64,000 bases of DNA, taken from NCBI RefSeq assembly GCF_023015765.1, contig NZ_JALKAL010000001.1, positions 47,478 through 111,477 on the forward strand, written 5' to 3'. A program made the position numbers and the translations under genes. The notes under the pieces are model-generated. The model had not been told where the DNA came from and made no database searches. It saw only the letters and a list, made by a program, of their open reading frames with translations. The DNA is from Ornithinimicrobium sp. F0845. Lineage in GTDB: Bacteria > Actinomycetota > Actinomycetes > Actinomycetales > Dermatophilaceae. Shown here piece after piece: positions 182 to 64,000 of the stretch (within the stretch, counting starts at the first letter, position 1; each line of letters begins with the position of its first letter).

Positions 182-567
182 CTGTGTGCGGGGGCGACTG
201 CCGGCCGGGCCGTTGCGCGGCCGAACAGCCACGCGGCGAGTCCGAACAGGCCGGCGTACATCATCGTGAGCCCCACCAGGTCGAGCACGGACACGTCATC
301 GCGCCCGGGCACCACGGCCACGAGGACGCCCACGGTCACGGCCACCGTGGCGACCGCGGCCGCGACGAGCGTGACCGCCATCCCACGCGCCCGGAACCTG
401 GCCAGGAGCGCACCCAGGACGAGGACCGCGAGGACCGCACCGTAGAGCAGATCGGCACGACCCCCAGACCCGACGATGCCCAGCGCTCCGGCGCCGAGGA
501 CGAGGAGGGCGGCGGTCCCCACCGTGACGAGGAGGCCGAGGCGGTATGCGGAGGTGCCGGTGGTCAT
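178..567 (-). CDS. small four-helix membrane protein, function unknown
   Basis: The product is a 129-residue, very hydrophobic protein with about four predicted membrane segments (roughly residues 9-31, 38-58, 64-88 and 96-117) and a short polar tail. I chose the ATG at 565-567 (MTTGTSAYRL); the longer open frame upstream has no support and runs into the divergent methyltransferase promoter. It shows no recognisable catalytic motif. Its stop codon is inside the terminator-like hairpin shared with the upstream tRNA. It faces away from the methyltransferase gene starting at 707, and the two share the 568-706 gap for promoters. Function not assigned. Confidence 0.7.
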   Translation of the reverse strand: MTTGTSAYRLGLLVTVGTAALLVLGAGALGIVGSGGRADLLYGAVLAVLVLGALLARFRARGMAVTLVAAAVATVAVTVGVLVAVVPGRDDVSVLDLVGLTMMYAGLFGLAAWLFGRATARPAVAPAHS

Positions 568-706
568 GACTGCCAGGCTATGACCGGCCTGGGGGCGAAG
601 GTGGGTGGAGCGTGTGAAGGTTGTGTGCAGATGCACAGCGCTCACCGGTCGGCCGCCCTCCGCGCCCCGCCCGCACCGCCTGCGAGCTGCCGTTAGCGTG
701 GACGGG

Positions 707-1345
707 ATGACGCCGACGGTGGACTTCTCGGGTCTGCAGATCACCTACGACGAGCGGGTCCTGGAGCCGAGGCGCTGGACCGCCGACCAGTCCCGGTGGG
801 CGGCAGAGCTCATGTCGCTGGCGCCTCCCGGGCCAGTGCTCGAGCTGTGCTGCGGGGCGGGGCACATCGGCCTCCTGGCGACGGCGCTCACCGCCGCTGA
901 CACGCGACGGCACCTTGTGGCCGTGGACCTCAACCCCGCCGCGGTCACCCTCTCGACCGCGAACGCCGCTGCCGCCGGACTCGACGACTGGGTCGAGGTC
1001 CGTGGCGGAGACATGAGCGAGGTCCTGAGCGACCGCGAGGTCTTCTCGGTGATCATCGCCGACCCGCCGTGGGTGGCGACCGAGCAGACCACCCGTTATC
1101 CCGAGGACCCGTTGCTGGCGATCGACGGCGGGCCCGACGGTCTTGCTGTGGCCCGACTCTGCGCGCGGGTCATGCAGGAGCACCTCCACCGCGACGGGGT
1201 CGCGGTCCTGCAGCTCGGCGACCTGGACCAGGTCGACGCCCTGGACCTCACGGCATACTGCCTGGAGGTGACAGAGGTGCGGGCAGGTGAGCGCGGGGTG
1301 CTCGCCAGCCTGCGGCGACTCGGCCCGGACGCCCGGCCGGCCTAG
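707..1345 (+). CDS. class I SAM-dependent methyltransferase (MTS/PrmC-like)
   Basis: A 212-residue Rossmann-type methyltransferase. Motif I is seen in VLELCCGAGHIGLLA (about residues 44-58), the acidic end of strand beta-2 in VAVDLNP, and the substrate-amide motif DPPW in IIADPPWVATE (about residue 120). DPPW/NPPY motifs are known in enzymes that methylate amide or exocyclic nitrogens of Gln, adenine or guanine (HemK/PrmC, RsmC families), so an N-methyltransferase acting on protein or nucleic acid is likely. The substrate cannot be read from the sequence. The ATG at 707 was chosen because the protein core starts there. Its 3' end overlaps the converging CDGSH gene by 4 nt. Confidence 0.82.
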   Translation: MTPTVDFSGLQITYDERVLEPRRWTADQSRWAAELMSLAPPGPVLELCCGAGHIGLLATALTAADTRRHLVAVDLNPAAVTLSTANAAAAGLDDWVEVRGGDMSEVLSDREVFSVIIADPPWVATEQTTRYPEDPLLAIDGGPDGLAVARLCARVMQEHLHRDGVAVLQLGDLDQVDALDLTAYCLEVTEVRAGERGVLASLRRLGPDARPA

Positions 1346-1545
1346 TCGGGACGCTTGTCCGGGGGCAGCCGCTTGTGGGTGCTGTCGCACCAGGGGAGCC
1401 TGCCGGAGAAGCCGCAGCGGCAGACCGCGACGACCGTGCGATCCACTGCGTGCTCGACCCCCTCGCCATCCGTGTAGGTCTGGCACCCGCGCAGGAGCAG
1501 GGGCCCTCCCGGGCACACGAGCACCCGCTCGGGCAGGGTCGTCAT
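1342..1545 (-). CDS. CDGSH-type iron-sulfur protein
   Basis: A 67-residue protein whose C-terminal half holds the CDGSH zinc-finger-like signature CRCGFSGRLPWCDSTHK: three cysteines and one histidine (C-x-C-x2-S-x3-P-x-C-D-x2-H) that bind a redox-active [2Fe-2S] cluster in mitoNEET-family proteins. The central CDGSH tetrad reads CDSTH here. The gene is the second of a two-gene unit: its ATG overlaps the stop of the upstream heme-oxygenase-like iron protein by 4 nt, so the two are almost surely co-translated. A role as electron carrier or cluster donor for that partner is inference. Confidence 0.9.
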   Translation of the reverse strand: MTTLPERVLVCPGGPLLLRGCQTYTDGEGVEHAVDRTVVAVCRCGFSGRLPWCDSTHKRLPPDKRPD

Positions 1546-2624: not shown

Positions 2625-3269
2625 ATGCGCTATCTCCTCGTCCCCGGGGCCGGTGGACAGGCGTGGTACTGGCACCGGCTCGTCCCGCTGCTGCCAGATG
2701 CCGTCGCTGTCGAGCTCCCCGCGGCTGATCCGCACGCCGGCCTTGTGGAGTATGCCGACACGATCGTTGCCGCGGCAGGTCCGGATCCCGGGCCGGTCAC
2801 CGTGGTCGCCCAGTCGATGGGCGGGCTGTCGGCGCCACTGGTCTGCGACGGGCTGGACGTCCGGGAGCTCGTGCTGGTCAACGCGATGATCCCCCGGCCC
2901 GGCGAGTCCGGTCATGAGTGGTGGGCCGCGACGGGCCACGCGCTGAGCGAGCCGATGGAGGTGATGCACCACTTCTTCCACGATGTGCCCGAGGACGTCA
3001 CGGCGGAGGCGATGGCCATGGGTGAGCCACAGCAGACCGAACGGCCGTTCGACGACCCGTGGCCACTGCCGGCGTGGCCCGACGTGCCCACCCGGGTGCT
3101 CACGGGCAGCCACGACCGGTTCTTCCCGCCGGACTTCCAGCGTCGAGTGGCGCAGGAACGGCTGGGCCTGCCGGTGGAGCTGGTGCCCGGCGGTCACCTG
3201 GCGGCGCTCAGCCGGCCGGAGGGGTTAGCCGCCGCGTTGCTCGGGGTGTCGGTCAGCCCGCGTCGATGA
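2625..3269 (+). CDS. alpha/beta hydrolase (EstC/MenH-like)
   Basis: A 214-residue alpha/beta hydrolase. The oxyanion-hole region is LVPGAGGQAWYW near the N terminus. The nucleophile elbow is VVAQSMGG (Ser about residue 65), the acid is in LTGSHDRFFPP (about residue 160) and the catalytic His in PGGHLAALS (about residue 191), so the triad is complete. It resembles small esterases of the EstC/salicylate-binding-protein type; the natural substrate is unknown. The last 17 nt overlap the converging YdeI-like gene. Confidence 0.85.
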   Translation: MRYLLVPGAGGQAWYWHRLVPLLPDAVAVELPAADPHAGLVEYADTIVAAAGPDPGPVTVVAQSMGGLSAPLVCDGLDVRELVLVNAMIPRPGESGHEWWAATGHALSEPMEVMHHFFHDVPEDVTAEAMAMGEPQQTERPFDDPWPLPAWPDVPTRVLTGSHDRFFPPDFQRRVAQERLGLPVELVPGGHLAALSRPEGLAAALLGVSVSPRR

Positions 3270-6384: not shown

Positions 6385-7413
6385 ATGCCCGACACCGCGC
6401 TCCTGCTCGGCGGCACCGGCACCCTGCGCCGCACCGCCGAGCTGCTCGCCGCCCACGGGTGGCAGGTGACCGTCACCGGGCGCGACGCCTCGGTGGCGCC
6501 GGAGGACTGGGCGAGGCACGGCATACGGACCGTTGTTGCGGACCGCGCCGACGAGCAGGCGACGGGTGCGCTGGTCGGGTCAGGGGTCGGCCTGTTGGTC
6601 GACGGGCAGTGCTACACACCGGACCGGGCGCGGGAGCTGGCCAGGTGGTCCCGCGCGTGCGGCTCCACCGTGATGCTGTCGGCCAAGGCGGTGTATGTCG
6701 ACGGGCTGGGCCGCCACCTCAACTCACCGGAGAAGCCGGTCTGGGACGGACCGGTCACCGAGGAGCGACCGACGATGGCGTTCGCGGGGGAGGAGCACCA
6801 GTCGGCGGAGGGCTACGGCGCGAACAAGGCTGAGGCCGAACGGGTGCTGCGGGCCGAGGGGGAGCGGATCTCGCTGCTGCGGCCGAGCAAGATCCATGGG
6901 GCCGGCACACGGCAGCCGCGACTGTGGGGTGTGCTCGCGCGGGTGCTCGCCGGGCGCACGAGGATCGCGGTGCGCCACGGTGACGTCGTGGAGTCGACGA
7001 CCTCGACGGAGGCGCTGGCCCGCACGATCCTGGCCTGCGCGCAGACCCCCGCAGCGAGGGTGCTCAACGTCGCCGACGGCGACCCGCGCCCGGCGCGGGA
7101 GCTGCTCGGTGAGGCGGTCGCGCTGGCCGGCGGGGCCATGGAGCTCATCGACGTCGACGGGGACGGCTGTCCGGAGGGGATCGGCCGGCTGCCGTGGACC
7201 CTCGACATGGAGCTCGACACGTCGGCCGACGTGGCACTCGGAGTGGAGCCGACCGTCTTCGCCGACGGCGCGGCGGCCGAGCTCGACTGGCTGCGTTCCC
7301 AGGCGCGTCGGGAGCCGGGCGGCACGTGGCGGCTGCCCGAGCGCCTCGGTGCCGCCTGGCCCGACCTGGCGGCCGAGGACGCCTGCCTCGCGTTGGGCGC
7401 CGCGGCCCCCTGA
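6385..7413 (+). CDS. NAD-dependent epimerase/dehydratase (short-chain reductase)
   Basis: A 342-residue extended short-chain dehydrogenase-like protein. The dinucleotide-binding motif is LLLGGTGTLRRTAELL at the N terminus, and the active-site pair is in EGYGANKAEAERVL (YxxxK, about residues 139-152). A downstream segment LLRPSKIHGAGTRQP is typical of sugar or isoflavone-type epimerase/reductases. ATG at 6385 has GAAGGA about 7 nt upstream. The natural substrate is not evident. It stands alone, with a palindromic repeat upstream and a converging methyltransferase downstream. Confidence 0.8.
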   Translation: MPDTALLLGGTGTLRRTAELLAAHGWQVTVTGRDASVAPEDWARHGIRTVVADRADEQATGALVGSGVGLLVDGQCYTPDRARELARWSRACGSTVMLSAKAVYVDGLGRHLNSPEKPVWDGPVTEERPTMAFAGEEHQSAEGYGANKAEAERVLRAEGERISLLRPSKIHGAGTRQPRLWGVLARVLAGRTRIAVRHGDVVESTTSTEALARTILACAQTPAARVLNVADGDPRPARELLGEAVALAGGAMELIDVDGDGCPEGIGRLPWTLDMELDTSADVALGVEPTVFADGAAAELDWLRSQARREPGGTWRLPERLGAAWPDLAAEDACLALGAAAP

Positions 7414-7451: not shown

Positions 7452-8201
7452 TCAGCGCCGCGCCTCAATGCGGTGTCGCGTTGAGTGCGCGACGACAGGG
7501 CGGCCCGCCCGCAGCTGCGCGTCGAGCGCGAGCAGCTCGTCGCGGTAACGGGCGACCGTGAAATCCGGCACCCACCACACGCACTTGCGGAGCGTCCAGA
7601 CGACAGCACCGATGTCGTGGAACTCCATCCGGCAAAGCGCCGTCCGCAGATCCACCACCGTCAGCCCGGCCGTTTCGGCGGCTGCGGCCTCGCGCTCCGG
7701 GTCCCGACCCTCCGGGCCGTCGGGCCAGGAGCCGACGAAGTGGGTGATCAGCTCCGCCGCCGACCTGGGCCCGACGTGCTGTGCCAGATAGGTCCCGCCC
7801 TCGACCAGCACCCGGTGGATCTCCGGCCAGTCGGGCGCCACCGGGTGCCGCGAGGTGACTAGCTCGAACGAGCGGTCCGGGAACGGCAGGCCCTCTTTCC
7901 GGGAGGTGTCGACGACCTCCACACCCCGCGGCCCCAGGCGCTCGCGAGCCCGCACCAGGTTCGGCGGCCACGCCTCGGTCGCCGCCATCCGCGGCGGGAG
8001 CGCTGCCGCCTCGCCCAGCACCTCGCCGCCACCGGTGTCCAGGTCGAGCGCGGAGTCGACGGTGGCCAGCCGCTCGGCCAGCAGCACGGCATACTGCCAC
8101 GGCGGTCGCTCCTCGGTGGCCCGCCCGTCGAGCCAGCCGAACCCCCACCCGGTGACGTCGGCCGCCTCGGCCTCGGCGACCAGATCCTCGAACGACCTCA
8201 T
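7452..8201 (-). CDS. SAM-dependent methyltransferase
   Basis: A 249-residue methyltransferase-fold protein. Motif I is degenerate (SALDLDTGGGEVLGEAA, about residues 47-63), followed by ATEAWPPNLVRARERL, VVDTSRKEGLPFPDRSFELVTSR-type motif III/IV and IHRVLVEGGTYLAQHVG. The C-terminal 60 residues include RMEFHDIGAVVWTLRKCVWWVPDF, common in actinobacterial relatives that are annotated only as methyltransferases. The ATG at 8199-8201 overlaps the PIN-toxin stop by 4 nt; an alternative ATG is at 8208-8210. It is the last gene of a four-gene DinB / AbrB / PIN / methyltransferase unit. Confidence 0.8.
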   Translation of the reverse strand: MRSFEDLVAEAEAADVTGWGFGWLDGRATEERPPWQYAVLLAERLATVDSALDLDTGGGEVLGEAAALPPRMAATEAWPPNLVRARERLGPRGVEVVDTSRKEGLPFPDRSFELVTSRHPVAPDWPEIHRVLVEGGTYLAQHVGPRSAAELITHFVGSWPDGPEGRDPEREAAAAETAGLTVVDLRTALCRMEFHDIGAVVWTLRKCVWWVPDFTVARYRDELLALDAQLRAGRPVVAHSTRHRIEARR

Positions 8202-9477: not shown

Positions 9478-11649
9478 ATGGACAGCGGCTCGGCAGAGGC
9501 ACGGGGCGGGCGCCGGGTGCGCGGGTGGCTGCAGCGGCGCTGGTTGACCGGTCCCGGCTGGACCGGCGCGACGGTTGCGGTGGCCGTGACCGCGCTGGCC
9601 CTGTGGGGCTGGCGCGCGGCCGAGCAGATCCTCCCCGGCGCCGCGGCGGCGTCCTGGCGGATCCTGGTCAACGACCCGCTGCTGGCCTGCGGCGTGACGG
9701 TCGTGGTCGCCCTCCTGCTCACCGGTGTCGTTGCGGCGCTGCGCCGACACTGGCCGGTGCCCTTCCTGGCCGTGCTCGTCGGGGCGCTGCTGCTCCTGGT
9801 CACGATGGGCGCAGGAGCCTCCCGCACGGCCTGGCTGCTCCTCTGCGTGGTGGCCGTGACCACCGCCGCACTGATCGGCGGCGCCGTCGGCGGGCTCCTG
9901 GCCGGTGGCTCGGCACGTCCGGGCCGTGGCCGGGTAGTCGCAGCAGCCGTCAGCGCCGCCACAGTGGCCGTCGTTGCGGCGGGACTCGCCTGGCCCGGCC
10001 CCGGTGCCGACGCCCCCGACCTGCTGGCCGTCCGGGGAGGTGAGGCTCCGGCGGACCCCTCGGCACGCGGTCCGCACGAGGTGACGTCCACGTCATACGC
10101 CAGCGCTGTTCCCGGTCCGACCGACCACTACGCCTCCGCCGACGTGACCACCTCGCCGGTCGACGCGAGCGGGCTGATCAGCGGCTGGCGCAGCGGCGAC
10201 ACGCGCAGCCAGGTGTGGGGGTTCGACGCGTCAGCCCTGCCGGTGAACGGCGCGGTCTGGGCGCCGGCCGAGGGTGGACCGTTCCCGCTGGTGCTCATCG
10301 CGCACGGCAACTCCCCGCACGCGGACAGCGACCTGGGGTTCGCCTACCTGGCCGACGTGCTGGCCAGCCGGGGGTATGTCGTGGCCTCCCTGGACATGGG
10401 CTTTCTCAACACCAGCGTGCTGGACCGGGCGGGAGGCATCGTCGGTGCCGACCGGACCCGGGCCTGGCTCGTGCTGCAGCACCTGCGCCAGTGGGCGGCC
10501 TGGCAGGAGGGTGGCGGGCCCGTCGCGGCCCAGGTCGACCTCGGCCGCGTTGCCCTGGTCGGCCACTCCCGCGGCGGGGAGGCCGTCGCCGCCGCCACTG
10601 CCCTGGACGCACTCGGCTCCGACCCCGAGCTGCCGGGCCATGACCTGACCACCGGCGTCACCATCAGCAGCGTCGTGGCGCTGGCACCCAGTGACGGGCT
10701 CGTGCCGGTCGGGGGCGAGCCCGTGGTGCTGCAGGACGTCAACTACCTCACCCTGGCAGGGAGCCACGACGCGGACGTGGGGGCCTTCGCCGGCAGCAAC
10801 CAGTACGCCCGTACCGCAACCTCGGATGACACGGTGAAGGCGGCGGTCCTGATCCACCGGGCCAACCACAGCCAGTTCAACGCCCGGTGGGGGCGCTACG
10901 ACGTGGGGCTGGGGCTGAGCAAGCACGTGCTGGACACGGCGGCCCTGCTCGCACCGGAACAGCAGCGGCAGGTCGCCACCGTCCTCGTCTCGGCGTTCCT
11001 GGATCACACCCTGCGCGACGACCGGGCCGCGGGCACCCTGTTCGACGGGACGCTGCCCGAGGCAGGCTGGCTGCCCGACACCGGCTACCGGGTGGCGGCC
11101 GCCTCGGGGGAACGCGGTGGGGTGATCGGCTTCGACGACGCCGTGGTCGGTGCCGCGGGACTCGACACGTCGCTCGGCACGGTGCCGGTCGAGGGTGCCT
11201 CGGCCACGGTCGCCCCGCTGCCGCTGCGGGTCGGCACCTCGGACAACCCGGCTCTTCACCTGTCGCTCGACGGCGGCCCGGCGAGGGTCGGGATCCCGGT
11301 GGAGGGCCTCGGCGCGGACGCCCGAGTGGTCGTCGACCTGGCGCAGCTGAGCGCAGGCGGCGCACCGGTCACGGTCCACCTGGAGGTGACCGACGCGGGC
11401 GGCGCGGTGGCGACCTGCCCGGTCACCGGACCGGACGGCATACCGGATCAGTTGTCCGGGCAGACCGTCAAGCTGGCGGTGCTGCAGCCCACCGCCACCA
11501 GCGAGCCGGCCCTGCAGTCGTATGCCGTGTCGCCGGCCTGCGCGTCCGGTCCCGGGGGCGATCTCGGGCCGCCAGCGTCGGTCGCAATCGTGCTGGAGGC
11601 CGAGGCGTCCGCGAGCGTCCTGGTGGACAACCTCGGCGTGGTCCCCTGA
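9478..11649 (+). CDS. membrane-anchored alpha/beta hydrolase (chlorophyllase/PAF-acetylhydrolase-like)
   Basis: About 723 residues. The N-terminal third has four or five membrane segments (residues about 25-180, e.g. LLACGVTVVVALLLTGVVAAL and LLLCVVAVTTAALIGGAVGGLL). An exported hydrolase domain follows: oxyanion loop LVLIAHGNSPHADSD, nucleophile VALVGHSRGGEAV (Ser), and a downstream LTLAGSHDADVG acid and IHRANHSQFNARWG His. The last 150 residues look like a beta-sandwich domain. The ATG at 9478 has GAGGGG about 8 nt upstream; ATG 9430 is an alternative. It is probably a surface esterase or lipase; substrate unknown. Confidence 0.82.
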   Translation: MDSGSAEARGGRRVRGWLQRRWLTGPGWTGATVAVAVTALALWGWRAAEQILPGAAAASWRILVNDPLLACGVTVVVALLLTGVVAALRRHWPVPFLAVLVGALLLLVTMGAGASRTAWLLLCVVAVTTAALIGGAVGGLLAGGSARPGRGRVVAAAVSAATVAVVAAGLAWPGPGADAPDLLAVRGGEAPADPSARGPHEVTSTSYASAVPGPTDHYASADVTTSPVDASGLISGWRSGDTRSQVWGFDASALPVNGAVWAPAEGGPFPLVLIAHGNSPHADSDLGFAYLADVLASRGYVVASLDMGFLNTSVLDRAGGIVGADRTRAWLVLQHLRQWAAWQEGGGPVAAQVDLGRVALVGHSRGGEAVAAATALDALGSDPELPGHDLTTGVTISSVVALAPSDGLVPVGGEPVVLQDVNYLTLAGSHDADVGAFAGSNQYARTATSDDTVKAAVLIHRANHSQFNARWGRYDVGLGLSKHVLDTAALLAPEQQRQVATVLVSAFLDHTLRDDRAAGTLFDGTLPEAGWLPDTGYRVAAASGERGGVIGFDDAVVGAAGLDTSLGTVPVEGASATVAPLPLRVGTSDNPALHLSLDGGPARVGIPVEGLGADARVVVDLAQLSAGGAPVTVHLEVTDAGGAVATCPVTGPDGIPDQLSGQTVKLAVLQPTATSEPALQSYAVSPACASGPGGDLGPPASVAIVLEAEASASVLVDNLGVVP

Positions 11650-12989: not shown

Positions 12990-13071
12990 GGGCCCATTCT
13001 TCCTCAGCAGGACCTGCAGTATGCCGGGGGAGACTCTGGTGCGCACCGGCCCGCTGTGCCATCGTGGAGAG

Positions 13072-14645: not shown

Positions 14646-15884
14646 ATGAACACCACGGAGCCCAGCGCCCGCGCCCGTGAGTCCGCCGCGGCGGAAGCCC
14701 ACCCCCGTGAGTCCGCCGCGACGGAGCGCTTGCTGACCCGTTCGCTGGTGCAGCTGACGGCGGCAGACCTGGCCTACTTCACTGCGGCGGGGGTGGCGAT
14801 CTACACCCTGCCGATGTTCGTCACCGGACCGGTGGGGTCCGGACGCGCTGGGGCCGGCCTGGCGTTCGGCGCCTTCGCGGTCACCGCCCTCGTGCTGCGG
14901 CCGTTCGCCGGGCGCCTCACCGACCGCCACGGCCGACGACCGCTGCTCCTCGGGGGTGCGGCGCTCGCCGCGGCGACCATGCTGCTCACCGGACTGGTCG
15001 AGGACCTGGCTCTCGTCATACTCCTGAGGCTGCTGCTCGGAGTGGCCGAGGCGGCCTTCATGGTGGCCTCGTTCGCGGCGGTCGCCGACCTGGCACCGCC
15101 GAGCCGGATGGGCCAGGTGCTGAGCTACAACTCCCTCGGGCTCTACCTGGGTCTGGCCGCGGGGCCGCCGCTCGGGGAACTGCTCACCAGGAGCCTCGGC
15201 TTCCCCGCTGCCTGGACCGGGGCGGCGGCACTCGCCGGGTTGGCCGTCCTGCTCGTGGCCGGCCTGCCCGAGACGAGGTCCTCGGAGCCAGGGGCCGCAT
15301 CCGGGGCGGGGCGGACGGGGCCGGCGCACCAGCCGGTCGTGCACCGACCCTCGATCCCGCCGGCGCTCGGCTTCCTGGCCTCGACGATCGCCATGAGCGC
15401 GTTCCTGGCGTTCGCTGCGCTGCACGCGGACGCGGTGGGTCTGGCCGGCGCGAGTCTGCCGCTGACCGTCTACGGCGGCGTGGTGGTCCTCGGCCGGATC
15501 AGCTTCGCCCGCTTCATGGACGTGCTGCCACCGCACCTGGTGGCGGCGACTGCCCTGGTGACGATGGCGCTCGGACTCGCAGCGGCCGCGCTCTGGCAGT
15601 CGGCGGCGGGTCTGCTGGTCGGGGCCGCCGTGCTCGCGCTCGGCGTCGTCTTCAGCACGCCCGCCTTCTTCAGCGCGATCTTCGCGACCGCCGGGCCGGC
15701 GGAGCGCGGCGCCGCCGCCGGGACCGCCAGTGCGGCGATCGACCTGGGCCTCGGCGCCGGCCCGATCGCGCTGGGTCTGGTGGCCGAGGGGCTCGGGCTC
15801 CCGTGGGTGTTCGGCGCCGGTGCGGCCGCGGCCCTGGTGGGCACGGTCTGGACGGTGTCCGTCGCAGCCCGGGCGGACCGCTGA
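14646..15884 (+). CDS. MFS transporter
   Basis: A 412-residue major-facilitator protein with about 12 membrane segments. The motif A-type loop RPFAGRLTDRHGRRPLLLGG lies between helices 2 and 3 and a second, weaker one (GRISFARFMD) lies between helices 8 and 9. The substrate is not evident; drug or metabolite efflux is likely for this class. ATG at 14646 starts a 35-residue charged N terminus before helix 1. It sits 44 nt after the HD-GYP-LuxR gene, suggesting a regulator-transporter pair. Confidence 0.85.
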   Translation: MNTTEPSARARESAAAEAHPRESAATERLLTRSLVQLTAADLAYFTAAGVAIYTLPMFVTGPVGSGRAGAGLAFGAFAVTALVLRPFAGRLTDRHGRRPLLLGGAALAAATMLLTGLVEDLALVILLRLLLGVAEAAFMVASFAAVADLAPPSRMGQVLSYNSLGLYLGLAAGPPLGELLTRSLGFPAAWTGAAALAGLAVLLVAGLPETRSSEPGAASGAGRTGPAHQPVVHRPSIPPALGFLASTIAMSAFLAFAALHADAVGLAGASLPLTVYGGVVVLGRISFARFMDVLPPHLVAATALVTMALGLAAAALWQSAAGLLVGAAVLALGVVFSTPAFFSAIFATAGPAERGAAAGTASAAIDLGLGAGPIALGLVAEGLGLPWVFGAGAAAALVGTVWTVSVAARADR

Positions 15885-24465: not shown

Positions 24466-24519
24466 GCGCAGTTCAACGATTGCGGTGACGCTCGGCATAC
24501 TGTGGGGCCGTCGAGGGCA

Positions 24520-31756: not shown

Positions 31757-31873
31757 GTCGGAGAGGTTACCTGACAGCCTGCTGACCACCGAAATCGCGG
31801 GGGAGTGATGCCGTGATCAGGGGAGTATGCCGTGGGTCAGGGGCGGCGGGCCGTGGGTCAGGGCCCTCGGCGC
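31757..31873. other. 117-bp gap with short direct repeats
   Basis: Contains the words CCGTGGGTCAGGG twice (about 31829 and 31851) and a GTATGCCG octamer at 31825. No gene. It lies between the tRNA promoter and the alcohol dehydrogenase 3' end. Confidence 0.4.
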
Positions 31874-32920: not shown

Positions 32921-33023
32921 GGCGCCATTCTTGTCTGCCGACCCGACCCGGGATCACCCGGCCTGGTGCGCCCAGCCGGCTCACGGCATACTCCCGCCGT
33001 TTGTCACTCCCCCTGGGAGAGGT

Positions 33024-47983: not shown

Positions 47984-48484
47984 ATGGAGTGGCTCACGGA
48001 GACGCAGTGGTTGTGGTGGATCGCGGCCGCCCTGGTCCTGGGTCTGATCGAGATCGCCTCGCTCGATCTCGTCTTCTCGATGCTGTCCCTCGCGGCCCTG
48101 GCCGCCGCCGGTGCCGCGGGGCTCGGCCAGGACATCACCGTCCAGGTGCTGACGTTCGTCGCGATGTCCGCCCTCCTGCTCGCCGTCCTGCGCCCGCTGG
48201 CGCTGCGCAAGCTCAAACCGGCCGGCGAGGGCGAGCGCACCAACGCCGACGCGCTCGTCGGCCGGACCGCCGTCGTGCTCCAGGAGGTCACCGACCGCAC
48301 CGGGCTGGTCAAGCTGACCGGCGAGGAGTGGACCGCCCGGACCGCCCCCGGCTCGGCGCTGCCCGTCGACGACACAGTGCAGGTGCTGCGCATCGACGGC
48401 GCCACGGCGGTGGTCGCACCGCTGCCCGACGCGGGTCCGGACGGACCCGATGTCGGGACCACACGGCATACTGACAACCCGTAA
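47984..48484 (+). CDS. NfeD-family membrane protein
   Basis: A 166-residue protein with two or three membrane segments (WLWWIAAALVLGLIEIASLDLVFSMLSLAALAAAGAAG and VLTFVAMSALLLAVLRPLAL) and a C-terminal OB-fold NfeD domain (ADALVGRTAVVLQEVTDRTGLVKLTGEEWTAR...DDTVQVLRIDGA). NfeD proteins partner with SPFH proteins in membrane microdomains; the SPFH gene follows 17 nt later. ATG 47984, preceded by GAGGTGAG. Confidence 0.92.
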   Translation: MEWLTETQWLWWIAAALVLGLIEIASLDLVFSMLSLAALAAAGAAGLGQDITVQVLTFVAMSALLLAVLRPLALRKLKPAGEGERTNADALVGRTAVVLQEVTDRTGLVKLTGEEWTARTAPGSALPVDDTVQVLRIDGATAVVAPLPDAGPDGPDVGTTRHTDNP

Positions 48485-49761: not shown

Positions 49762-51558
<1,797 letters not shown>

Positions 51559-53183: not shown

Positions 53184-54500
53184 TCAGAGACCCTTGGCGG
53201 CCCGGAAGCCCGTCTCCAGGTCGGCGATGATGTCGTCGATGTGCTCGAGCCCGACGGCCAGGCGCACCAGACCGGGCGTGACGCCCGCCGCGGCCAGGGC
53301 GTGCTCGTTGAGCTGCCGGTGCGTCGTCGACGCCGGGTGGATCACCAGCGAGCGCACGTCACCGATGTTGGCGACGTTGGAGTGCAGCTCCAGCGCGGAG
53401 ACGAACGCCTTGCCCGCCTCCAGACCGCCGGCGATCTCGAAGGCGAGGACGGCGCCGGCGCCACCGGGCAGATACTGCTGGGCCAGCTCGTATGACGGGT
53501 GGCCGGGCAGGCCGGCGTAGCTCACCGAGACGACCTGCTCCTGGTCCAGCAGCCAGTTGGCCACCTGCTTGGCGTTCGCGACGTGGCGCTCCACCCGCAG
53601 CGACAGGGTCTCGATGCCCTGGGCGATGAGGAAGGCGTTGAACGGCGAGATCGCCGGGCCGAGGTCGCGCAGCAGGGTGACTCGGGCGCGCAGGATGTAG
53701 GACAGGTTGACGCCGCCGAAGATCTCGTTGCCGACGCCGAGGTCCTTGGCGAAGGTCAGGCCGTGGTAGCCCTCGTCCGGCTCGTTGAACAGCGGGAACT
53801 TCTCCGGGTGCTGCGCATAGTCGAAGTTGCCGCTGTCCACGAGGACGCCACCGATCGCGGTGCCGTGGCCGCCGAGGTACTTGGTGGCGGAGTGCACCAC
53901 GATGTCGGCCCCGTGCTCGATCGGTCGGGTCAGGTAGGGAGTGGCGATGGTGTTGTCGATGATCAGCGGCACGCCGACCTCGTGCGCCACGTCGGCCACC
54001 GCGCGGATGTCCAGGACGAGCGCGCTGGGGTTGGCGATGCTCTCGCCGAAGAAGGCGCGGGTCCGCTCGTTGGCGGCAGCACGCCACGACTCCGGGTCGG
54101 TCGGGTCCTCGACGAAGGTGACGTCGATGCCGAGCCGCGGCAGGGTCTGGGCGAACAGGTTCTGGGTGCCGCCGTAGAGGCTGGGCGAGGCGACCAGGTG
54201 GTCACCGGCCTGGGCGACGTTGAGGATCGAGAAGGTGGAGGCCGACTGCCCGCTGGCCAGCAGCAGGGCACCGACGCCGCCCTCGAGGTCGGCGATGCGG
54301 TTCTCGACGACCTCGGTGGTCGGGTTGCCGATGCGGGTGTAGATCGGACCGAGGTCCTCGAGGTTGAACCGGGCCGCGGCGACGTCGGCGTCGTCGAAGA
54401 CGAAGGAGGTGGTCTGGTAGATCGGCAGGGCGCGGGCGCCGGTGGCGGCGTCCGGGGTCTGACCGGCGTGAATCTGACGGGTGGCGAAGGACCAGGACAT
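53184..54500 (-). CDS. metY: O-acetylhomoserine aminocarboxypropyltransferase (MetY)
   Basis: A 438-residue PLP enzyme that replaces the acetyl group of O-acetylhomoserine with sulfide to give homocysteine. Visible motifs: [38 protein letters not shown] and the PLP lysine region [16 protein letters not shown] (Lys about 209). Usual family length. ATG 54498-54500. First gene of metYX; preceded by a SAM-sensing leader. Confidence 0.95.
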
Positions 54501-54867: not shown

Positions 54868-55046
54868 TTCGGTCACACGCGCCAGTGAACGGGGTGGAAT
54901 CGCATGAACTGCGTTAGAGAGACTCTTTGCCGAGGATTATGCAGTATGACGTGTGCTGGGTGGGATCCTGCCCACCCGACGCCGGGGTGGGACCGCCGTT
55001 TCTCCGGGGTCTGCCAGGCCCCAGCGCGCCGCTATAAGGTCTCCCG

Positions 55047-58275: not shown

Positions 58276-59756
58276 CACCCGCGCTCCTCCACGAGGACCT
58301 GCCCGAAGCCGACGTTGGCCTCGACCTCCACGTCGACGGGGCCGTCGCCGACCACGATCACCTCGTCGACCCCGATCCCGCCGACGTCCTGGCCGTTCTT
58401 GTTGACGGCGCCCATGCCGGCGCCCGCCTCGATGCGGACGGTCAGGTCGTCGGGGACCACGACCGTGAGGTTGCCGAAGGAGACGCTGGCCACAATCGGG
58501 TCCGGGAAGTCGCCCGGGTCGACGCCGCGCAGGTCGAGGGTGCCGGTCCCGGCACCGAGCCGGAACGGCCCGTCGTCGCCGATGCTGGCGTCCGGCCGCC
58601 AGGTGACGTCACCCATCCGCCCGGAGGGGACGAAGTTGTGGCCGACCGGCACCGCGACCATCGTCAGGATCAGCGCGCACACCGCCAGGAAGCCGGGGAA
58701 CCCCGAGGTCCGGCCGAGAAGGCCCAGGAGCAGGATCACTAGACCGAGGGCGGCCAGCGCACCGGTCAGGCCGATGACGACGGGGTCGACCGGCCAGTCG
58801 TACTCCGTGGCCGCCCAGGCCAGCCCACCGCCCGCGGCGAGCGCCAGGCCGGTGCCCAGCAGTGTGCCCGCGACACCCGCCGAGCGTCGCGAGGGACGCC
58901 GCGGGGCCTTGGGCGGCTTGGGTGGGCGGGGCGTCGCGGGGGTCGGTCCGCCGCCCTGGTGGTCGCCGGACTGCCCGAGGGACTGCCCGACGGACGGCTC
59001 GGTCGGGGACCAGGCCGTCGCCCCGCTGGAGCCGGCGATCGGCGCGGTGCTCCCGAGCGCGTCCTCGGGCCGGTCCTGGGTCGTCGAGACCGAGGCCGTG
59101 TCCTGGCCGGCGTAGGGCGGGGCAGGATGCTGCGAGCTCCACGCCTGCGAGCTCCACGCCTGCGTGGTCCCCGACGGCGACCCCCACGGCTGCGCCGAAC
59201 CAGACTGCGCCGGATCAGGCTGCACGGGACCAGACTGTGCCGGACCGGCTTGCGAGGCTCCGGACTGCGCGGCCCGGTTGCTGTAGAACCCGGGCTGCTC
59301 ACGTCGGGACCACTCGGTCCACAGCCACCAGCCACCCAGGGCCAGCAGCGTGAGGGAGATCACCGTCCAGAGCCCACCGAACCACCAGTCGTTGCCCCAC
59401 CAGCCGAACGTCCCGAAGACGCTGAGCACCGTGAAGACCAGCAGGATCACCGAGCCGACCTCGCCATTGCGCAGGGCCTGCTCGATGTGGGTGGTCTCGT
59501 CGCGGTCCGGGATCAGCAGCCAGCCGGCCAGGTAGAGCAGGACCCCCGCCCCCAGCCCCAGGCTCAGCACCACGAACAGGGCGCGGACGACGATCGGGTC
59601 GATGCCCAGCCGCTCGGCCAGCCCGGAGCACACGCCGCCGAACCAGCTGTCCCCCGAGCGCCGCATGTCGATCCTGCGCAACCCCACGAAGAAGTTGTCG
59701 GCGCTGCGCGGGCCCGGCTGCCCGCCATACTGTCCGCCGGGTGGTGTCTGTGTCAT
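58275..59756 (-). CDS. PspC-domain protein with C-terminal LiaF/toast-rack domain
   Basis: A 493-residue protein. An N-terminal PspC domain (RRSGDSWFGGVCSGLAERLGIDPIVVRALFVV), several membrane segments, a Gln/Ser/Ala/Gly/Pro-rich spacer (residues about 165-275) built of QSGxAQ-like repeats, more helices, and a C-terminal DUF2154/LiaF-like beta domain (SVSFGNLTVVVPDDLTVRIEAGAGMG). Such proteins sense cell-envelope stress and usually control the adjacent LiaSR-like pair, which lies divergently here. ATG 59754-59756. Confidence 0.87.
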   Translation of the reverse strand: MTQTPPGGQYGGQPGPRSADNFFVGLRRIDMRRSGDSWFGGVCSGLAERLGIDPIVVRALFVVLSLGLGAGVLLYLAGWLLIPDRDETTHIEQALRNGEVGSVILLVFTVLSVFGTFGWWGNDWWFGGLWTVISLTLLALGGWWLWTEWSRREQPGFYSNRAAQSGASQAGPAQSGPVQPDPAQSGSAQPWGSPSGTTQAWSSQAWSSQHPAPPYAGQDTASVSTTQDRPEDALGSTAPIAGSSGATAWSPTEPSVGQSLGQSGDHQGGGPTPATPRPPKPPKAPRRPSRRSAGVAGTLLGTGLALAAGGGLAWAATEYDWPVDPVVIGLTGALAALGLVILLLGLLGRTSGFPGFLAVCALILTMVAVPVGHNFVPSGRMGDVTWRPDASIGDDGPFRLGAGTGTLDLRGVDPGDFPDPIVASVSFGNLTVVVPDDLTVRIEAGAGMGAVNKNGQDVGGIGVDEVIVVGDGPVDVEVEANVGFGQVLVEERG

Positions 59757-59762
59757 GACTCC

Positions 59763-59871: not shown

Positions 59872-61119
59872 GTGACCAGTCCGCACGCCGCCCCGGGACC
59901 GCAGGGTGTCGCTCCCCGTCGGGAGCGTCCGCCGCTGCGGCGGGCGAGCGAGGGCCGGGTCGTCGCGGGAGTATGCCGTGGGCTGGCCGACCACCTCGGC
60001 CTCCACCCGCTCGCGCTGCGGGCCGCGATCGTCGTGCTCACCCTGGTGGGCGGCACGGGTGCCCTGATCTACGCCTTCCTGTGGGCCACGGTGGAGCCGG
60101 ACGAGGGCGAGGCCCAGATCCGGGCGGCCCGGACCCGCTGGGCCGACCCGGGGGTGCTCCTCGTGGTCGGTGGTGGGCTCGCGGTCCTGCTCGGCGTGGC
60201 CGCCCTGGTCCAGTCCTGGGGGCTCGACCTGCGGCTGGACATCACGCTGCCGGTGCTGCTGCTCACCGTCGGAGCGGTCTTCGTCTGGTCGCAGCTGGAC
60301 GCGCCGCGGCGGGACCGGCTGCTGGCCCACCAGGGCATCGACCGGCGGCAGGCGCTGGGGCGCCTCGTCCTCGGGCTCGGGCTGGCGGTCGCCGGCCTCG
60401 TCGCGCTCGGGGTGCAGGGGGGCAACCTGGCTCAGCTGCGCGACGTGGGCGGGGCCGTCCTGCTGACCCTGGCCGGCGTGAGCCTGCTGGCCGCGCCGTA
60501 CGTCGCGCGCCTGTGGCGGGACCTGCGCGAGGAGCAGGCCGGCCGCATCCGGGAGACCGAGCGGGCCGACATCGCCGCCCACCTTCACGACTCCGTCCTG
60601 CAGACGCTCGCGCTGATCCAGCGCAGGGCCGACGACCCGGTGCAGGTGGCGCGGCTGGCGCGTGCGCAGGAGCGGGAGCTGCGCAGCTGGCTCTACACCG
60701 GCCCGACCGGGCACGCGGCGACCCTGGCCGGTGCCGTCGCGGCCGTCGGGCACGAGGTCGAGGACCTGCACGGGGTGCCGATCGAGCTGGTCGTCACCGG
60801 CGACCGGCCGCTGGACGCCGACGGTCAGGCCCTGGTCAACGCGCTGCGCGAGGCTCTGGTCAACGCGGTGCGGCACGGGGAGCCGCCGGTGTCGGCCTAC
60901 GTCGAGGTGGGCCGGGTCTCGGTGGAGGCCTTCGTCCGCGACCACGGCGCCGGCTTCGACCCCGATGACGTCCCGGCCGACCGGCTCGGCGTGCGCGAGT
61001 CGATCCTGGGCCGGATGCAACGCCACGGAGGGACGGCGCGCGTGCGCCGCCTCGAGAGCGGCACCGAGGTCAGCCTCGAGCTGCCGGTGCCCGTCGAACA
61101 CCAAGGAGCAGAGTCATGA
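59872..61119 (+). CDS. PspC-domain histidine kinase (LiaS/DesK-like)
   Basis: A 415-residue sensor kinase. An N-terminal PspC domain (RRASEGRVVAGVCRGLADHLGLHPLALRAAIVVLT), five or six membrane segments, a HisKA_3 dimerisation helix with the phosphorylated His in ADIAAHLHDSVLQTLALIQ (about 250), and an ATPase domain with NALREALVNAVRHG and DHGAGFDPDDV. It pairs with the response regulator by ATGA overlap. GTG 59872 chosen; GTG 59851 is an alternative. Confidence 0.9.
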   Translation: MTSPHAAPGPQGVAPRRERPPLRRASEGRVVAGVCRGLADHLGLHPLALRAAIVVLTLVGGTGALIYAFLWATVEPDEGEAQIRAARTRWADPGVLLVVGGGLAVLLGVAALVQSWGLDLRLDITLPVLLLTVGAVFVWSQLDAPRRDRLLAHQGIDRRQALGRLVLGLGLAVAGLVALGVQGGNLAQLRDVGGAVLLTLAGVSLLAAPYVARLWRDLREEQAGRIRETERADIAAHLHDSVLQTLALIQRRADDPVQVARLARAQERELRSWLYTGPTGHAATLAGAVAAVGHEVEDLHGVPIELVVTGDRPLDADGQALVNALREALVNAVRHGEPPVSAYVEVGRVSVEAFVRDHGAGFDPDDVPADRLGVRESILGRMQRHGGTARVRRLESGTEVSLELPVPVEHQGAES

Positions 61120-61811
61120 CCGAACCTAGCGGCAGTATGCCGATCCGCCTGGTCCTCGTCGACGACCACCGGATGTTCCGGTCCGGGGTGCGGGCCGAGC
61201 TGGACGAGATCTCCGGCAACCGGCTGGAGATCGTGGGGGAGGCCGGCACCGTCGACCGGGCCGTCGAGGTGATCCGGGAGCAGCAGCCCGACGTGGTGCT
61301 CCTGGACGTGCACCTGCCCGGCGGGAACGGCCGTGGTGGGTCCGACGTGATCGCCGGGTCCGCCGGGGTGAGCACCCGGGCCGGGGGACCGGTGCGGTTC
61401 CTCGCGCTGTCGGTCTCCGACGCGGCCGAGGACGTGATCGCGGTGATCCGGGCCGGGGCCCGCGGCTATGTCACCAAGACGATCAGCGGCCCCGAGCTGG
61501 GCGGTGCGATCGTGCGGGTGGCCGACGGTGACGCGGTCTTCAGCCCCCGCCTGGCGGGCTTCGTGCTCGACGCGTTCGGCGCCGCGGCGGGCGAGATCGC
61601 CGAGGTCGACGAGGAGCTGGACCGGCTCAGCTCCCGCGAGCGCGAGGTGATGCGACTGATCGCCCGCGGCTATCAGTACAAGGAGGTGGCCAAGGAGCTG
61701 TTCATCTCGGTCAAGACCGTCGAGACGCACGTCTCCTCGGTGCTGCGCAAGCTGCAGCTCTCCTCCCGCCACGAGCTCACCGCCTGGGCCTCCGCCCGCC
61801 GCCTGCTCTGA
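61116..61811 (+). CDS. LuxR-type response regulator
   Basis: A 231-residue regulator. Receiver domain: VLVDDHRMFRSG (acidic pair and phospho-acceptor region), VVLLDVHLPGGNG (Asp about 64), and KTISGPELGG (Lys). LuxR helix-turn-helix: LSSREREVMRLIARGYQYKE and VAKELFISVKTVETHV. Its stop is followed by a palindromic repeat and a converging MFS gene. It should bind the operator cluster at 59763-59819. Confidence 0.95.
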   Translation: MTEPSGSMPIRLVLVDDHRMFRSGVRAELDEISGNRLEIVGEAGTVDRAVEVIREQQPDVVLLDVHLPGGNGRGGSDVIAGSAGVSTRAGGPVRFLALSVSDAAEDVIAVIRAGARGYVTKTISGPELGGAIVRVADGDAVFSPRLAGFVLDAFGAAAGEIAEVDEELDRLSSREREVMRLIARGYQYKEVAKELFISVKTVETHVSSVLRKLQLSSRHELTAWASARRLL

Positions 61812-61906: not shown

Positions 61907-62026
61907 CTCGTCGTTCTGGGGTGGCGCAGTCAGGTGCTTGGTGGGGGTGGGCTCTCGCAACGCGGCGTGCTCGGTGGGGGGAAATCGCGCAACACGGTGC
62001 GCTCGGTCCCGAGGGGAGGGGTGCCG

Positions 62027-63244
62027 TCAGGCCGGGCGCCGCTGCAGCAGCGCCGTGCCCGCGCCGACGACGAGGATCGCGCCGGAGAGCAGCAGGCCGG
62101 TGCCGAGGTCGGCGGTGACGTCCGAGACCCATCCGGTCAGCGTGGGACCGACGGTCTGGCCCAGGCCGAAGGCGACGGTCGCGAAGGCGATGCCGGCGGT
62201 CCACCACGGCTGCGGCAGGCTCTCGCGGACCGCGATGCTGACCGCCGTGACCACCGCCAGGAAGCTCCCGCCCACGACGGCACCCGACAGGTAGGCCGCC
62301 ACGGCACCGTCGAGCACCACGGGCAGAATCGTGCCGACCGCCAGGGCCGTCATGACGACGGCCATCCCGCGCGCGCCACCGAGGCGTCCGAGCAGCGGAC
62401 CCCACGCCAGGCCGGACACGGCGGCGGCGAGACCGACCACCGCCCAGAAGCCGGCGATCAGGGGACCGCTCATGCCCTGTTCGGTGAGGTACTGGCTGAT
62501 GAAGGTCAGATACGCGATGTAGCCCAGGCCGAAGCAGGTGTAGGCGGCCACCGCCCACCCGATGCGGCGCCGGTCCCAGCGACTCGCGTGGTCCCCCGGC
62601 GGTGCGGGATCGGACACCCGCCGTGCGGCGAGGACCGCGGCCACGGTGGCGACGACCCCCACGGCTGCGAGCGTGAGCCACCCCTGCCGCCAGCCCGCGC
62701 CGTCGGTGACGTCCAGGACCCACGGCACCAACAGCCCGGCGGCGACGATCCCGGCACCGGCACCCCCGAAGTAGACGCCGAGCAGCACGGCGGCCCGACC
62801 GGGCGTGCCCCGGTGGCTGGCCTCGGCGACCAGCGCCGCGCCGAGGACGAAGGCCAGGGCCCCCGAGAGTCCGGCGACGAAGCGGATGGTGAGGAGCACG
62901 GCATACGTGCTGGTCACGGCGGTGAGCGCCAGGGCGACGGTGGTGACCGCGGTGCCCGCGACGAAGGCCCGTCGGGTGCCCCACGTCCTGGCGAGCGTGG
63001 TCGCGATCACCGCGCCGATCAGATAGCCGGCGGCGTTCGCGGTGTTGAGGGCGCCGGCCGCGGAGTAGGACCAGCCCAGGTCCTCGCTCATCGCCGGGAG
63101 CAGGAGGGCGTAGGCGAACCGGGCCAGGCCGAGCGCCACCAGCGGACCTGCGGCGAGCCCCACGGCGAGCAGCAGGCGACCGTTGCCGTCGTCGGTGACC
63201 AGGGGGAGGCGTGGCGTCGTGCCGTGCCCGCCCTCACCCGTCAT
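62027..63244 (-). CDS. YbfB/YjiJ-type MFS transporter
   Basis: A 405-residue transporter of the YbfB/YjiJ family with about 12 membrane segments. Family features: SALNTANAAGYLIGAVIATTLAR near the N terminus, ASHRGTPGRAAVLLGVYFGGAGAGIV, and GWVSDVTADLGTGLLLSGA. Substrate unknown. ATG 63242-63244, preceded by GTG/GAG-rich leader and no strong ribosome site. Divergent from the lipoprotein at 63317, sharing 72 bp. Confidence 0.9.
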   Translation of the reverse strand: MTGEGGHGTTPRLPLVTDDGNGRLLLAVGLAAGPLVALGLARFAYALLLPAMSEDLGWSYSAAGALNTANAAGYLIGAVIATTLARTWGTRRAFVAGTAVTTVALALTAVTSTYAVLLTIRFVAGLSGALAFVLGAALVAEASHRGTPGRAAVLLGVYFGGAGAGIVAAGLLVPWVLDVTDGAGWRQGWLTLAAVGVVATVAAVLAARRVSDPAPPGDHASRWDRRRIGWAVAAYTCFGLGYIAYLTFISQYLTEQGMSGPLIAGFWAVVGLAAAVSGLAWGPLLGRLGGARGMAVVMTALAVGTILPVVLDGAVAAYLSGAVVGGSFLAVVTAVSIAVRESLPQPWWTAGIAFATVAFGLGQTVGPTLTGWVSDVTADLGTGLLLSGAILVVGAGTALLQRRPA

Positions 63245-63316
63245 GGGTGCAGTCCACCACACCGCACCCGGGCGGGTCGGCGGCCCCAGGGGCGGAGCGG
63301 TGCGAGGATCGTGGCT

Positions 63317-64000
63317 ATGTCCCGCAGCGTGCTCGCTCTCGCCACCACCGCTGTGCTGCTTGCCGCCGCCGGGTGCTCGGTCGAGTCGGACAGCGAGGAG
63401 CCGACGGCGACGCACACGGGTGAGGCGTCCGCCGAGGCGCCGACCACCGAGGCAGGTCAGACCACCCCCGAGGACCGGGCGAGCACCGCCTCGCCGGAGG
63501 GCACCGCGGGAGCCGGCCTGTCGGCATACGGGATGGCCCTGCTGGCCACGCCGGTGGAGGCGACTCACCTGACCGTCACCGACTTCGACGCGGTCCGGGG
63601 GCGGCTCGGGGTGCCCGACCTGACCTCGGCGGACCTGATGACCGACCGGCTTGAGTTCTGGCGCGCGGCGGAGGGCTCGAGCGTGCTGCTCAGCGACGGG
63701 CTGCTGCGGCTGGAGAACAGTCGCTACGACCTGACCTACGGCTTCACGCAGGACGACGTCGACGCCGAGGTGCACTGGACCGGCCCGGACGGCGGCGGCT
63801 TCCTGCTGGCCCTGCGCCCCGGCCTGGACCTCGACCTCGTGCAGGCGGCGATCGACGACGACGCGCCCGGTCTGGCGGACGCGATCCTCGACCCGGCAAC
63901 GGCCACGGTCGGCCAGGGCGTGGGCACCGACGCGGTGTGGGCGACCAGCAGCCACAGTGCCGCCGCCAGGGTCGGGGAGGTGCCGGCCGAGAGCCTGATC
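63317..64000 (+). CDS. lipoprotein, 3' part beyond the window
   Basis: The frame from ATG 63317 stays open for 228 codons to the window end. It begins SRSVLALATTAVLLAAAGCS, a clear signal sequence and lipobox with Cys21, then an acidic/Thr-rich linker and a folded domain with LTVTDFDAVRGRLGVPDLTS and YGFTQDDVDAEVHWTGPDGGGF. Codon use (GC-rich third positions) supports a real gene. Family not recognised. It is divergent from the MFS gene. Confidence 0.8.
   Translation, partial: MSRSVLALATTAVLLAAAGCSVESDSEEPTATHTGEASAEAPTTEAGQTTPEDRASTASPEGTAGAGLSAYGMALLATPVEATHLTVTDFDAVRGRLGVPDLTSADLMTDRLEFWRAAEGSSVLLSDGLLRLENSRYDLTYGFTQDDVDAEVHWTGPDGGGFLLALRPGLDLDLVQAAIDDDAPGLADAILDPATATVGQGVGTDAVWATSSHSAAARVGEVPAESLI

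Follow-up and report, generated by a model that had tools for sequence, protein, structure and literature searches.

A stretch of 64,000 nucleotides from Ornithinimicrobium sp. F0845 (contig NZ_JALKAL010000001.1, positions 47,478 to 111,477; this whole stretch is called the window below) raises the question of why one octamer, GTATGCCG, and its wider form, GTATGNCG, recur along it on both strands, and what might read them. The octamer occurs 30 times in the window (16 plus, 14 minus) compared with 1.01 in dinucleotide shuffles, where the maximum of 100 shuffles was 3, and the wider form occurs 48 times compared with 3.24 (maximum of 100, 8), indicating that the strong over-representation claimed in a preliminary description of this DNA was real and understated; the 22 coordinates listed there for GTATGCCG each match a real site within 3 bases. 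An order-3 Markov ranking of the 8-mers of the window places the word second, behind its own overlap TATGCCGT, and gives the extended form AGTATGCCGT. The enrichment is not confined to the window, as the whole genome (4,198,449 bases in 59 contigs) contains 1,692 copies of GTATGCCG, 864 forward and 828 reverse, about equal in the two orientations as had been claimed, compared with 52 + 60 copies of the backward-read control word. The consensus derived from 451 kb of the same contig is GnAGTATGNCG(T)G. At 191 GTATGCCG sites in these 451 kb the preceding base is A in 59%, in agreement with the preference noted earlier, and the word is followed by T in 41% and then by G in 68%; the word comprises 7 fixed bases plus weak flanks. 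GTATGNCG is non-palindromic and lacks the symmetry of the highly iterated palindrome 1 (HIP1) type. As set out below, several groups of Actinomycetes carry high-copy non-palindromic words of one family, and GTATGNCG is the dialect found here.

The excess is one of a DNA word and does not stem from codon usage. Genes were called with our own simple GC-position caller, and the gene sets are therefore approximate. When synonymous codons were shuffled within genes of the 451 kb, 257 copies of GTATGNCG were observed compared with 45.9 expected, far from a ratio near 1, with enrichment in all six frames; an earlier run allowing three of the four bases at position 6 gave 236 compared with 37.7. The noncoding DNA of the 451 kb holds 49 copies compared with 5.4 expected, and the word density in the genome of the window (G000) is similar in coding (0.63/kb) and noncoding DNA (0.59/kb). 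ATA codons lie inside the word in 42 of 68 cases in the called genes of the 451 kb and in 5 of 8 in those of the window, confirming that the word forces ATA where it crosses isoleucine codons. An artefact of composition, codon or dicodon usage could appeal to the in-frame form xxG TAT GNC G, which is the commonest frame, but is extremely improbable in view of the codon-aware shuffle of GTATGNCG, the enrichment in six frames and in noncoding DNA, the concentration of ATA codons inside words and the conservation of sites between species. A related spelling, GTACGNCG, is moreover at codon expectation in the genes of two other genomes of the set, G342 (31/29.6) and G073 (38/33.4). The earlier proposal that the DNA word itself is selected is supported by the same observations.

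Individual words are kept between species. Five related genomes (G006, G015, G010, G008, and G013) were aligned to the window at 77-83% identity, and exact conservation of the word, position 6 being ignored, was compared by Fisher test with that of control octamers of the same strong/weak pattern. Words were exact at 21/33 sites compared with 24/117 controls in G006 (p=5e-6), at 20/27 compared with 14/86 in G015 (p=5e-8) and at 12/22 compared with 14/76 in G010 (p=0.001); the excess is marginal in G013 (5/19 and 4/54, p=0.046) and not significant in G008 (8/23 and 12/62, p=0.12). Words with exactly one changed base are few in four of the relatives (G006 0/33, G015 2/27, G010 3/22, G013 0/19), but number 6/23 in G008. 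With an exact word match as the site evidence, GTATGCCG is present in all five relatives at 40218..40225 (plus) and 62899..62906 (minus), in G006, G010, G008, and G015 at 41125..41132 and 63522..63529 (both minus), and in G006, G010, and G015 at 16838..16845 (plus, outside called genes), 21476..21483 (plus) and 38953..38960 (minus). It is exact in G006, G015, and G013 at 28203..28210 (minus), in G006 and G015 at 26533..26540 (minus), in G006 and G013 but not in G015 at 29155..29162 (plus), and in G006 at 1251..1258 and 6519..6526 (both minus) and at 19440..19447 (plus), the last of these not being a word in G010. At 30837..30844 (minus) the window has GTATGGCG, and G006, G010, G008, and G015 have GTATGCCG. 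No word is found in any of the five relatives opposite GTATGCCG at 32623..32630 (plus) or opposite the position 6 variant GTATGTCG at 27444..27451 (minus) and 34271..34278 (plus).

The edge of the word is fairly sharp, and its one-base neighbors are mostly not in excess. Position 6 is degenerate and accepts the other bases (observed/expected 52/4.7 for T, 38/5.2 for A, and 25/8.4 for G); all one-mismatch words pooled number 412 compared with 314.8 expected, and this net surplus equals the surplus at position 6. The neighbors above expectation are CTATGCCG (21/7.2), which is an exception to the sharp edge, GGATGCCG (73/51.9) and GTAGGCCG (40/23.5), and those below are GTCTGCCG (31/49.0) and GCATGCCG (31/44.9), both of which are also low in the word-poor genome G022 (3/11.6 and 7/11.7). 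The preliminary description held that the partner GTACGCCG is almost absent and suggested a methylation or repair bias converting it into the word. The first statement is wrong, since GTACGCCG has three copies in the window (starts 252, 23494, and 52573) and 19 compared with 22.9 expected in the 451 kb, where it is not clearly depleted. Because the precursor is not clearly depleted, decay of methyl-cytosine in GTACGCCG is rejected, and the conversion idea is not supported; GTACGNCG itself is enriched in some relatives.

The spread of the word was followed through genus, family and class. A search of 23 other Ornithinimicrobium genomes counted 50 copies in G022 and between 394 and 1,901 in each of the remaining 22. 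In the GTDB family, represented by 149 genomes of 53 genera, 81 genomes are word-rich, with a count of 300 or more that is also at least threefold that of the backward control; 150 copies or fewer were counted in 54 genomes and intermediate numbers in 14, the maximum being 4,724, so the word is indeed found in sister genera. Loci around comEC are rich in it in Intrasporangium oryzae, Arsenicicoccus bolidensis, Phycicoccus elongatus, Terrabacter, and Knoellia remsis, among others, and have zero copies in Intrasporangium flavum and Janibacter indicus; we take Intrasporangium, Arsenicicoccus, Phycicoccus, Terrabacter, Knoellia, and Janibacter to belong to the same GTDB family. In 184 genomes of the order outside the family there are at most 31 copies of AGTATGCCG, a count that other dialects would escape. 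Dialects were sought with a codon-aware 8-mer scan of the window and sixteen 100 kb samples, repeated for the eleven word-poor samples with an added Markov criterion. Word-rich relatives vary in the flanks and at positions 6-7 (GGTATGCCG, GTATGCCGT, GGTATGCCGCG, GTATGCGG), and another clear word is present in six of the eleven word-poor samples: GGATGCCG in G249 (110 copies compared with 11.7 by Markov), GTACGNCG in G159 and G286, CGATGNGG in G275, and CGAAGGGG in G089 and G336. The idea that G286 had lost the word was thereby rejected. G022 has a weaker word, GTAGCGGC (32 compared with 7.2), and recent decay is not seen there, one-mismatch words showing no excess (46 compared with 70.7). G335, which lies outside the sampled set, is word-poor as well. 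No word stands out in the 100 kb samples of G073, G342, G301, and G260, in which short or degenerate words would be missed; CCGGACGC in G301 (60 compared with 19.7) was not judged outstanding.

The dialect words tested all show enrichment in noncoding DNA and in almost every frame. Six spellings (GTATGNCG, GTATGCGG, GGATGCCG, GTACGNCG, CGATGNGG, and CGAAGGGG) share A3, G5 and G8 and fit xxAxGxxG in the register chosen, that of CGAAGGGG having been chosen to fit the shared core; GTAGCGGC does not fit. CGAAGGGG is iterated on both strands, with 69 copies per 100 kb in G089 (L064-L068) and 46 in G336 (L268-L272), and the Janibacter indicus locus L141 has 6 copies of it in 12 kb. In the sample of G020 (L034-L038), an Ornithinimicrobium with 62% GC there, GTATGCGG and GTATGNCG occur together, as though the genome stood midway between dialects. 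Beyond the family, GTACGNCG reaches 2.7 times codon expectation in the comEC flanks of Nocardioides (12 loci, 265 kb; noncoding 60 compared with 10.6) and 5.1 times in those of Kribbella (2 loci; noncoding 13 compared with 2.9), and is weak in Micromonospora (2.0) and Streptomyces (1.6), with G342 at 1.0 and G073 at 1.1. In 148 genomes of the class its counts run as high as 10,071 in the 4.9 Mb of G429 and 8,353 in the 3.2 Mb of G447, compared with 982 and 643 copies of its backward control, a control that ignores codon context, so that moderate ratios in this count mean little. GTACGNCG is perhaps the ancestral spelling.

The arrangement of the words on the two strands bears on how they are read. 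In five samples the strand counts were 142/139, 17/21, 30/39, 15/17, and 47/53, in total 251 compared with 269, and 50 kb blocks of G000 have 9-21 forward and 12-18 reverse words; 20 kb blocks of the other samples vary (3 and 7 in one block of G173, for example) without a consistent side. With origins of replication unmapped in these samples, a replichore-polar signal is judged unlikely because the words are about equal on the strands and take no consistent side between blocks, so polarity of the type of the FtsK-orienting polar sequences (KOPS) or architecture-imparting sequences (AIMS) was rejected, as the preliminary description had argued for KOPS. Consecutive words do, on the other hand, alternate between strands. 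Same-strand neighbors make up 112/305, 26/68, 31/99, 8/31, 16/48, and 42/109 in six samples (total 235/660, p=1e-13), and G006, G010, and G015, whose descent overlaps that of the window, agree (23/72, 12/45, and 23/68). In seven samples there are 142 same-strand pairs closer than 1 kb compared with about 260 expected from jittered positions. By four distance classes below 1 kb the same-strand pairs reach 0.51, 0.42, 0.47, and 0.64 of expectation, returning to normal beyond 1 kb, and the opposite-strand pairs reach 1.88, 1.25, 1.01, and 0.94. For pairs 60 to 1,000 bases apart the seven samples give 135 same compared with 275 opposite (p=4e-12). In G000 the same-strand share of 0.307 is below that of all 300 control octamer patterns of similar abundance (0.544 +- 0.057, lowest 0.366). 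The exclusion is repeated in fourteen word-rich named loci outside the discovery set (73 same, 115 opposite, p=0.001) and in Nocardioides with GTACGNCG (192 and 245, p=0.006).

Several results weigh against a general spacing rule. Kribbella shows no same-strand exclusion (142 and 150), and the neighbor test is flat in other dialects, with same-strand shares of 70/152, 48/87, 93/184, 31/68, and 21/45 and pair counts that are only slightly low (0.84, 0.81, and 0.92). Alternation is absent in G013 (23/44) and in the samples with GTACG, CGATG, and CGAAGG words, and the division into samples with GTATG or GGATG and samples with other dialects was made after the first neighbor results were seen. GTATGCCG alone gives a weak neighbor test in G000 (86/190 same, p=0.22), and the pair test is not significant in the single samples G187 (2 and 6), G011 (6 and 14) and G020 (9 and 14). 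As controls, Chi in 600 kb of E. coli MG1655 is polar (104 and 34) and shows no same-strand exclusion below 1 kb (19 compared with 20.2 expected), in a small sample of lower density, and E. coli KOPS, with 56 sites, is too sparse for the spacing test. The simplest explanation of the exclusion, which E. coli Chi does not show, is a reader that recognizes the word in one orientation and acts over about 1 kb, on both strands alike, and that is therefore probably directional; if the word is fragile, deletion between its direct copies would also produce the exclusion.

This last point belongs to a further alternative, in which the word has no function as such and is a by-product of methylation-dependent mismatch repair, or, in a variant that we consider under the same weight, a breakage site at which direct copies less than 1 kb apart delete each other, leaving selection on the spacing alone. 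A by-product of this kind is among the possibilities discussed for HIP1 in passages of PMC4390886, which also describe HIP words as quickly lost, with wholly different ones gained, in some cyanobacteria; a title in the reference list of the same article mentions excision promoted by HIP1, and direct-repeat deletion would account for the exclusion. The alternative is nevertheless improbable, given the lack of clear precursor depletion (GTCTGCCG and GCATGCCG being equally low in a word-poor genome), the conservation of words between species and the finding that none of the 300 other octamers of similar abundance matches the same-strand avoidance. The portions of PMC4390886 concerned themselves argue that HIP1 has a function.

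Words also form inverted pairs. In the first listed member of each genus with at least 900 words, pairs with a gap of 3-30 are above chance in 17 of 30 genera (p<1e-3), up to 15-fold, the expectation assuming random placement. G187 (L049-L053) has four hairpins that resemble one another, arranged as GTATGCCGCGTGGT-N-ACCACGCGGCATAC (exact in two cases), at joined positions 67366, 69447, 73213, and 78748, 15-177 bases past called gene ends; they are possibly terminators built from two words.

The best single reading of these features, which we hold tentatively, is that of an uptake-type self-recognition word that is read directionally. The word would be recognized, in one orientation, by a sequence-specific protein belonging to a directional DNA machine, which may be the natural-transformation apparatus with a Tad-type pilus and ComEA/ComEC. 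The word would then act like a DNA uptake sequence (DUS) by which a cell recognizes DNA of its own kind. Preferential uptake and subsequent recombination could spread and maintain it, and a change of receptor could drive a change of dialect. The strand-specific spacing would mean that each word serves the DNA on one side only, in line with the entry of a single strand in a fixed polarity. An uptake word is slightly favored because the dialects have a constant core, no replichore polarity was seen, inverted pairs are in excess in many genera and ComEC and T2SSF are present. The ComEC domain is found in 145 of the 149 family genomes and the T2SSF domain, common to Tad and GspF proteins, in 146. 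Natural transformation of Micrococcus luteus requires tad genes at two loci, as passages of PMC4322843 report.

A number of observations weigh against this reading, and we do not class the word as a DUS, its uptake role being that of a candidate. An uptake sequence that works in either orientation would not lead one to expect the 1 kb strand-specific spacing, and inverted pairs are not in excess in the genome of the window (7 compared with 4.8) or, at p<1e-3, in 12 other genera of the 30. GTACGNCG is abundant in several families of the class, and to our knowledge documented competence is narrower than this spread. PilT, the type IVa retraction ATPase, is found in 4 of the 149 family genomes, and type IVa pili were rejected for this reason. 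None of ComEC, T2SSF, PilT, and RecC follows the word across these genomes, and ComEC or T2SSF presence was rejected as a discriminator, both being near-universal. Word counts of 341-1,407 are found in the four genomes that lack a ComEC match (G252, G255, G256, and G298, which are incomplete or fragmented), and 1,520 words in G015, whose comEC (L097) lacks the middle part (query residues 341-478 unmatched). The three genomes without T2SSF (G233, G299, and G304) are word-poor and too few to read, and all other word-poor genomes have both domains. Neither a receptor candidate nor the reader protein was found with profile counts that covered ComEC, T2SSF, PilT, and RecC.

Further observations concern comEC itself. 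In G022 the match (L096) extends no further than residue 366, and the contig ends about 155 bases beyond that point. About 40 kb separate two parts of comEC in G002:C1 (about 1161213-1201312; L318, L319) and in G018:C46 (about 68541-108976). In G002 the insert is a prophage whose genes encode an integrase (PHROG 95), a terminase, tail proteins and a DnaB-like protein, and we read the integrase as of the serine type; the 40 kb of the prophage have 3 copies of GTATGCCG compared with 13 expected at genome density. ComEC matches in G308, G328, and G267 start at domain position 27-30, which suggests a shared insertion point.

A Chi-like word of an enzyme other than RecBCD, unlikely when taken singly, is nearly as likely as an uptake word, and the tested features fit the latter slightly better. 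In this alternative a helicase-nuclease resecting double-strand breaks from both ends reads one orientation of the word and switches to RecA loading, and the equal strands follow from the two-ended nature of breaks. AdnAB would be the candidate helicase-nuclease in Actinobacteria. The alternative stands close behind because strand-specific spacing and wide spread fit a directional, perhaps housekeeping, machine: the word is a non-palindromic octamer with one free position, its reader is apparently orientation-specific, a repair enzyme with a housekeeping role would suit the wide distribution of the GTACGNCG form, words are few in one prophage and sites are conserved. The mechanism is called widespread and possibly universal in a passage of PMC8022716. 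Against it stand the strand counts, in which no replichore polarity of the kind found for E. coli Chi was seen, and the lack in E. coli Chi of the same-strand exclusion seen here. RecBCD as the reader was rejected, as RecC, found in 60 of the 149 family genomes, matches in only 27 of 85 word-rich genomes (here those with 1,000 or more copies, or with 300 or more that are also at least threefold the control) compared with 29 of 54 word-poor ones (p=0.013, uncorrected for kinship).

In an alternative that is less likely still, an abundant DNA-binding protein of evolving specificity would organize the chromosome by binding the word every 0.4-2.5 kb. The slightly even spacing in G000 (coefficient of variation, CV, 0.88 compared with 0.99+-0.06) and G057 (0.88 compared with 0.98+-0.09) agrees with such an architecture site, as do the similar density inside and outside genes in G000 and the conservation of sites. 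The spacing is, however, uneven in G011 (CV 1.50) and G173 (CV 1.53), which have gaps of 22.5 and 16.9 kb. Exclusion limited to copies of the same orientation is also not what a simple bound site would be expected to cause, and no candidate protein was found. Of the candidates listed in the preliminary description, conversion by methylation or repair is not supported, and uptake, Chi-like and architecture sites are not discriminated by the data.

The remaining words of the window are exact matches as follows. GTATGCCG lies outside called genes at 8087..8094, 24493..24500, 32984..32991, and 49767..49774 on the minus strand and at 31825..31832 on the plus strand, and is further found on the plus strand at 2750..2757, 11520..11527, 13019..13026, 36137..36144, 46419..46426, 47347..47354, 51081..51088, 59971..59978, and 61135..61142 and on the minus strand at 11436..11443 and 48464..48471. 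GTATGTCG occupies 6693..6700, 10374..10381, 24270..24277, and 37192..37199 (plus) and 36211..36218 and 45903..45910 (minus). GTATGACG is found at 41701..41708, 41737..41744, 53490..53497, and 54944..54951 (plus) and at 10091..10098, 15014..15021, 20648..20655, and 44791..44798 (minus), and a second GTATGGCG at 59723..59730 (minus). Among the genes of the window, 27848-29461 encodes a HerA-like C-terminal ATPase (PF05872, E 1e-195) of a DNA-translocase family, and 58275-61811 encodes two PspC-domain proteins, one with a histidine-kinase ATPase domain, adjoining a NarL-type response regulator, perhaps an envelope-stress two-component set.

If the word serves uptake, a large group of soil bacteria would be predicted to undergo natural transformation limited by species barriers, and there would be a way to transform them; a recombination word would be a candidate Chi of Actinobacteria. 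Strand-specific spacing can be counted, and so looked for, in any genome, and the dialects allow a search for the reader protein by covariation. As a speculative proposal, an ancient, evolving high-copy word (GTACGNCG, GTATGNCG, GGATGCCG, CGATGNGG, CGAAGGGG) across much of Actinomycetes might join Chi and KOPS as a third class of polar genome word, strand-balanced, with about 1 kb between same-facing copies and read by a directional machine, its dialects acting as lineage-specific barriers to DNA exchange or repair. Literature searches confined to open-access full texts showed no uptake or Chi word for Actinobacteria, and a search with the bare octamer returned unrelated matches only.

Uptake words are known from Pasteurellaceae and Neisseriaceae, as parts of PMC7811141 state, and eight DUS dialects with a constant CTG core are described for Neisseriaceae in passages of PMC3630211. 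Like the DUS of Neisseriaceae and the uptake signal sequence (USS) of Pasteurellaceae, the word has more than 1,000 copies, in both orientations and inside and outside genes, forms dialects around a constant core, has inverted pairs in excess in 17 of 30 genera and is scarce in one prophage. In contrast to these, it belongs to another phylum of monoderm cells with Tad-type rather than type IVa pili, and it has 7 fixed bases with weak flanks and a same-strand exclusion over 1 kb. The string ATGCCGT, which the word has in common with the Neisseria DUS, is probably shared by chance. Like Chi of RecBCD and AddAB, the word is an over-represented, apparently orientation-specific octamer, and it is few in one prophage; it differs in that it is denser, shows no replichore polarity in the samples examined, excludes same-strand neighbors as E. 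coli Chi does not, and has RecC in the minority of word-rich genomes given above. HIP1 of cyanobacteria also has a very high copy number and is replaced by other words in some relatives (as passages of PMC4390886 describe). It differs in being palindromic and linked to orphan methyltransferases, whereas this word is non-palindromic. KOPS and AIMS are, like this word, octamers spread over the chromosome, but they are strand-biased by replichore, which the word, in the samples examined, is not.

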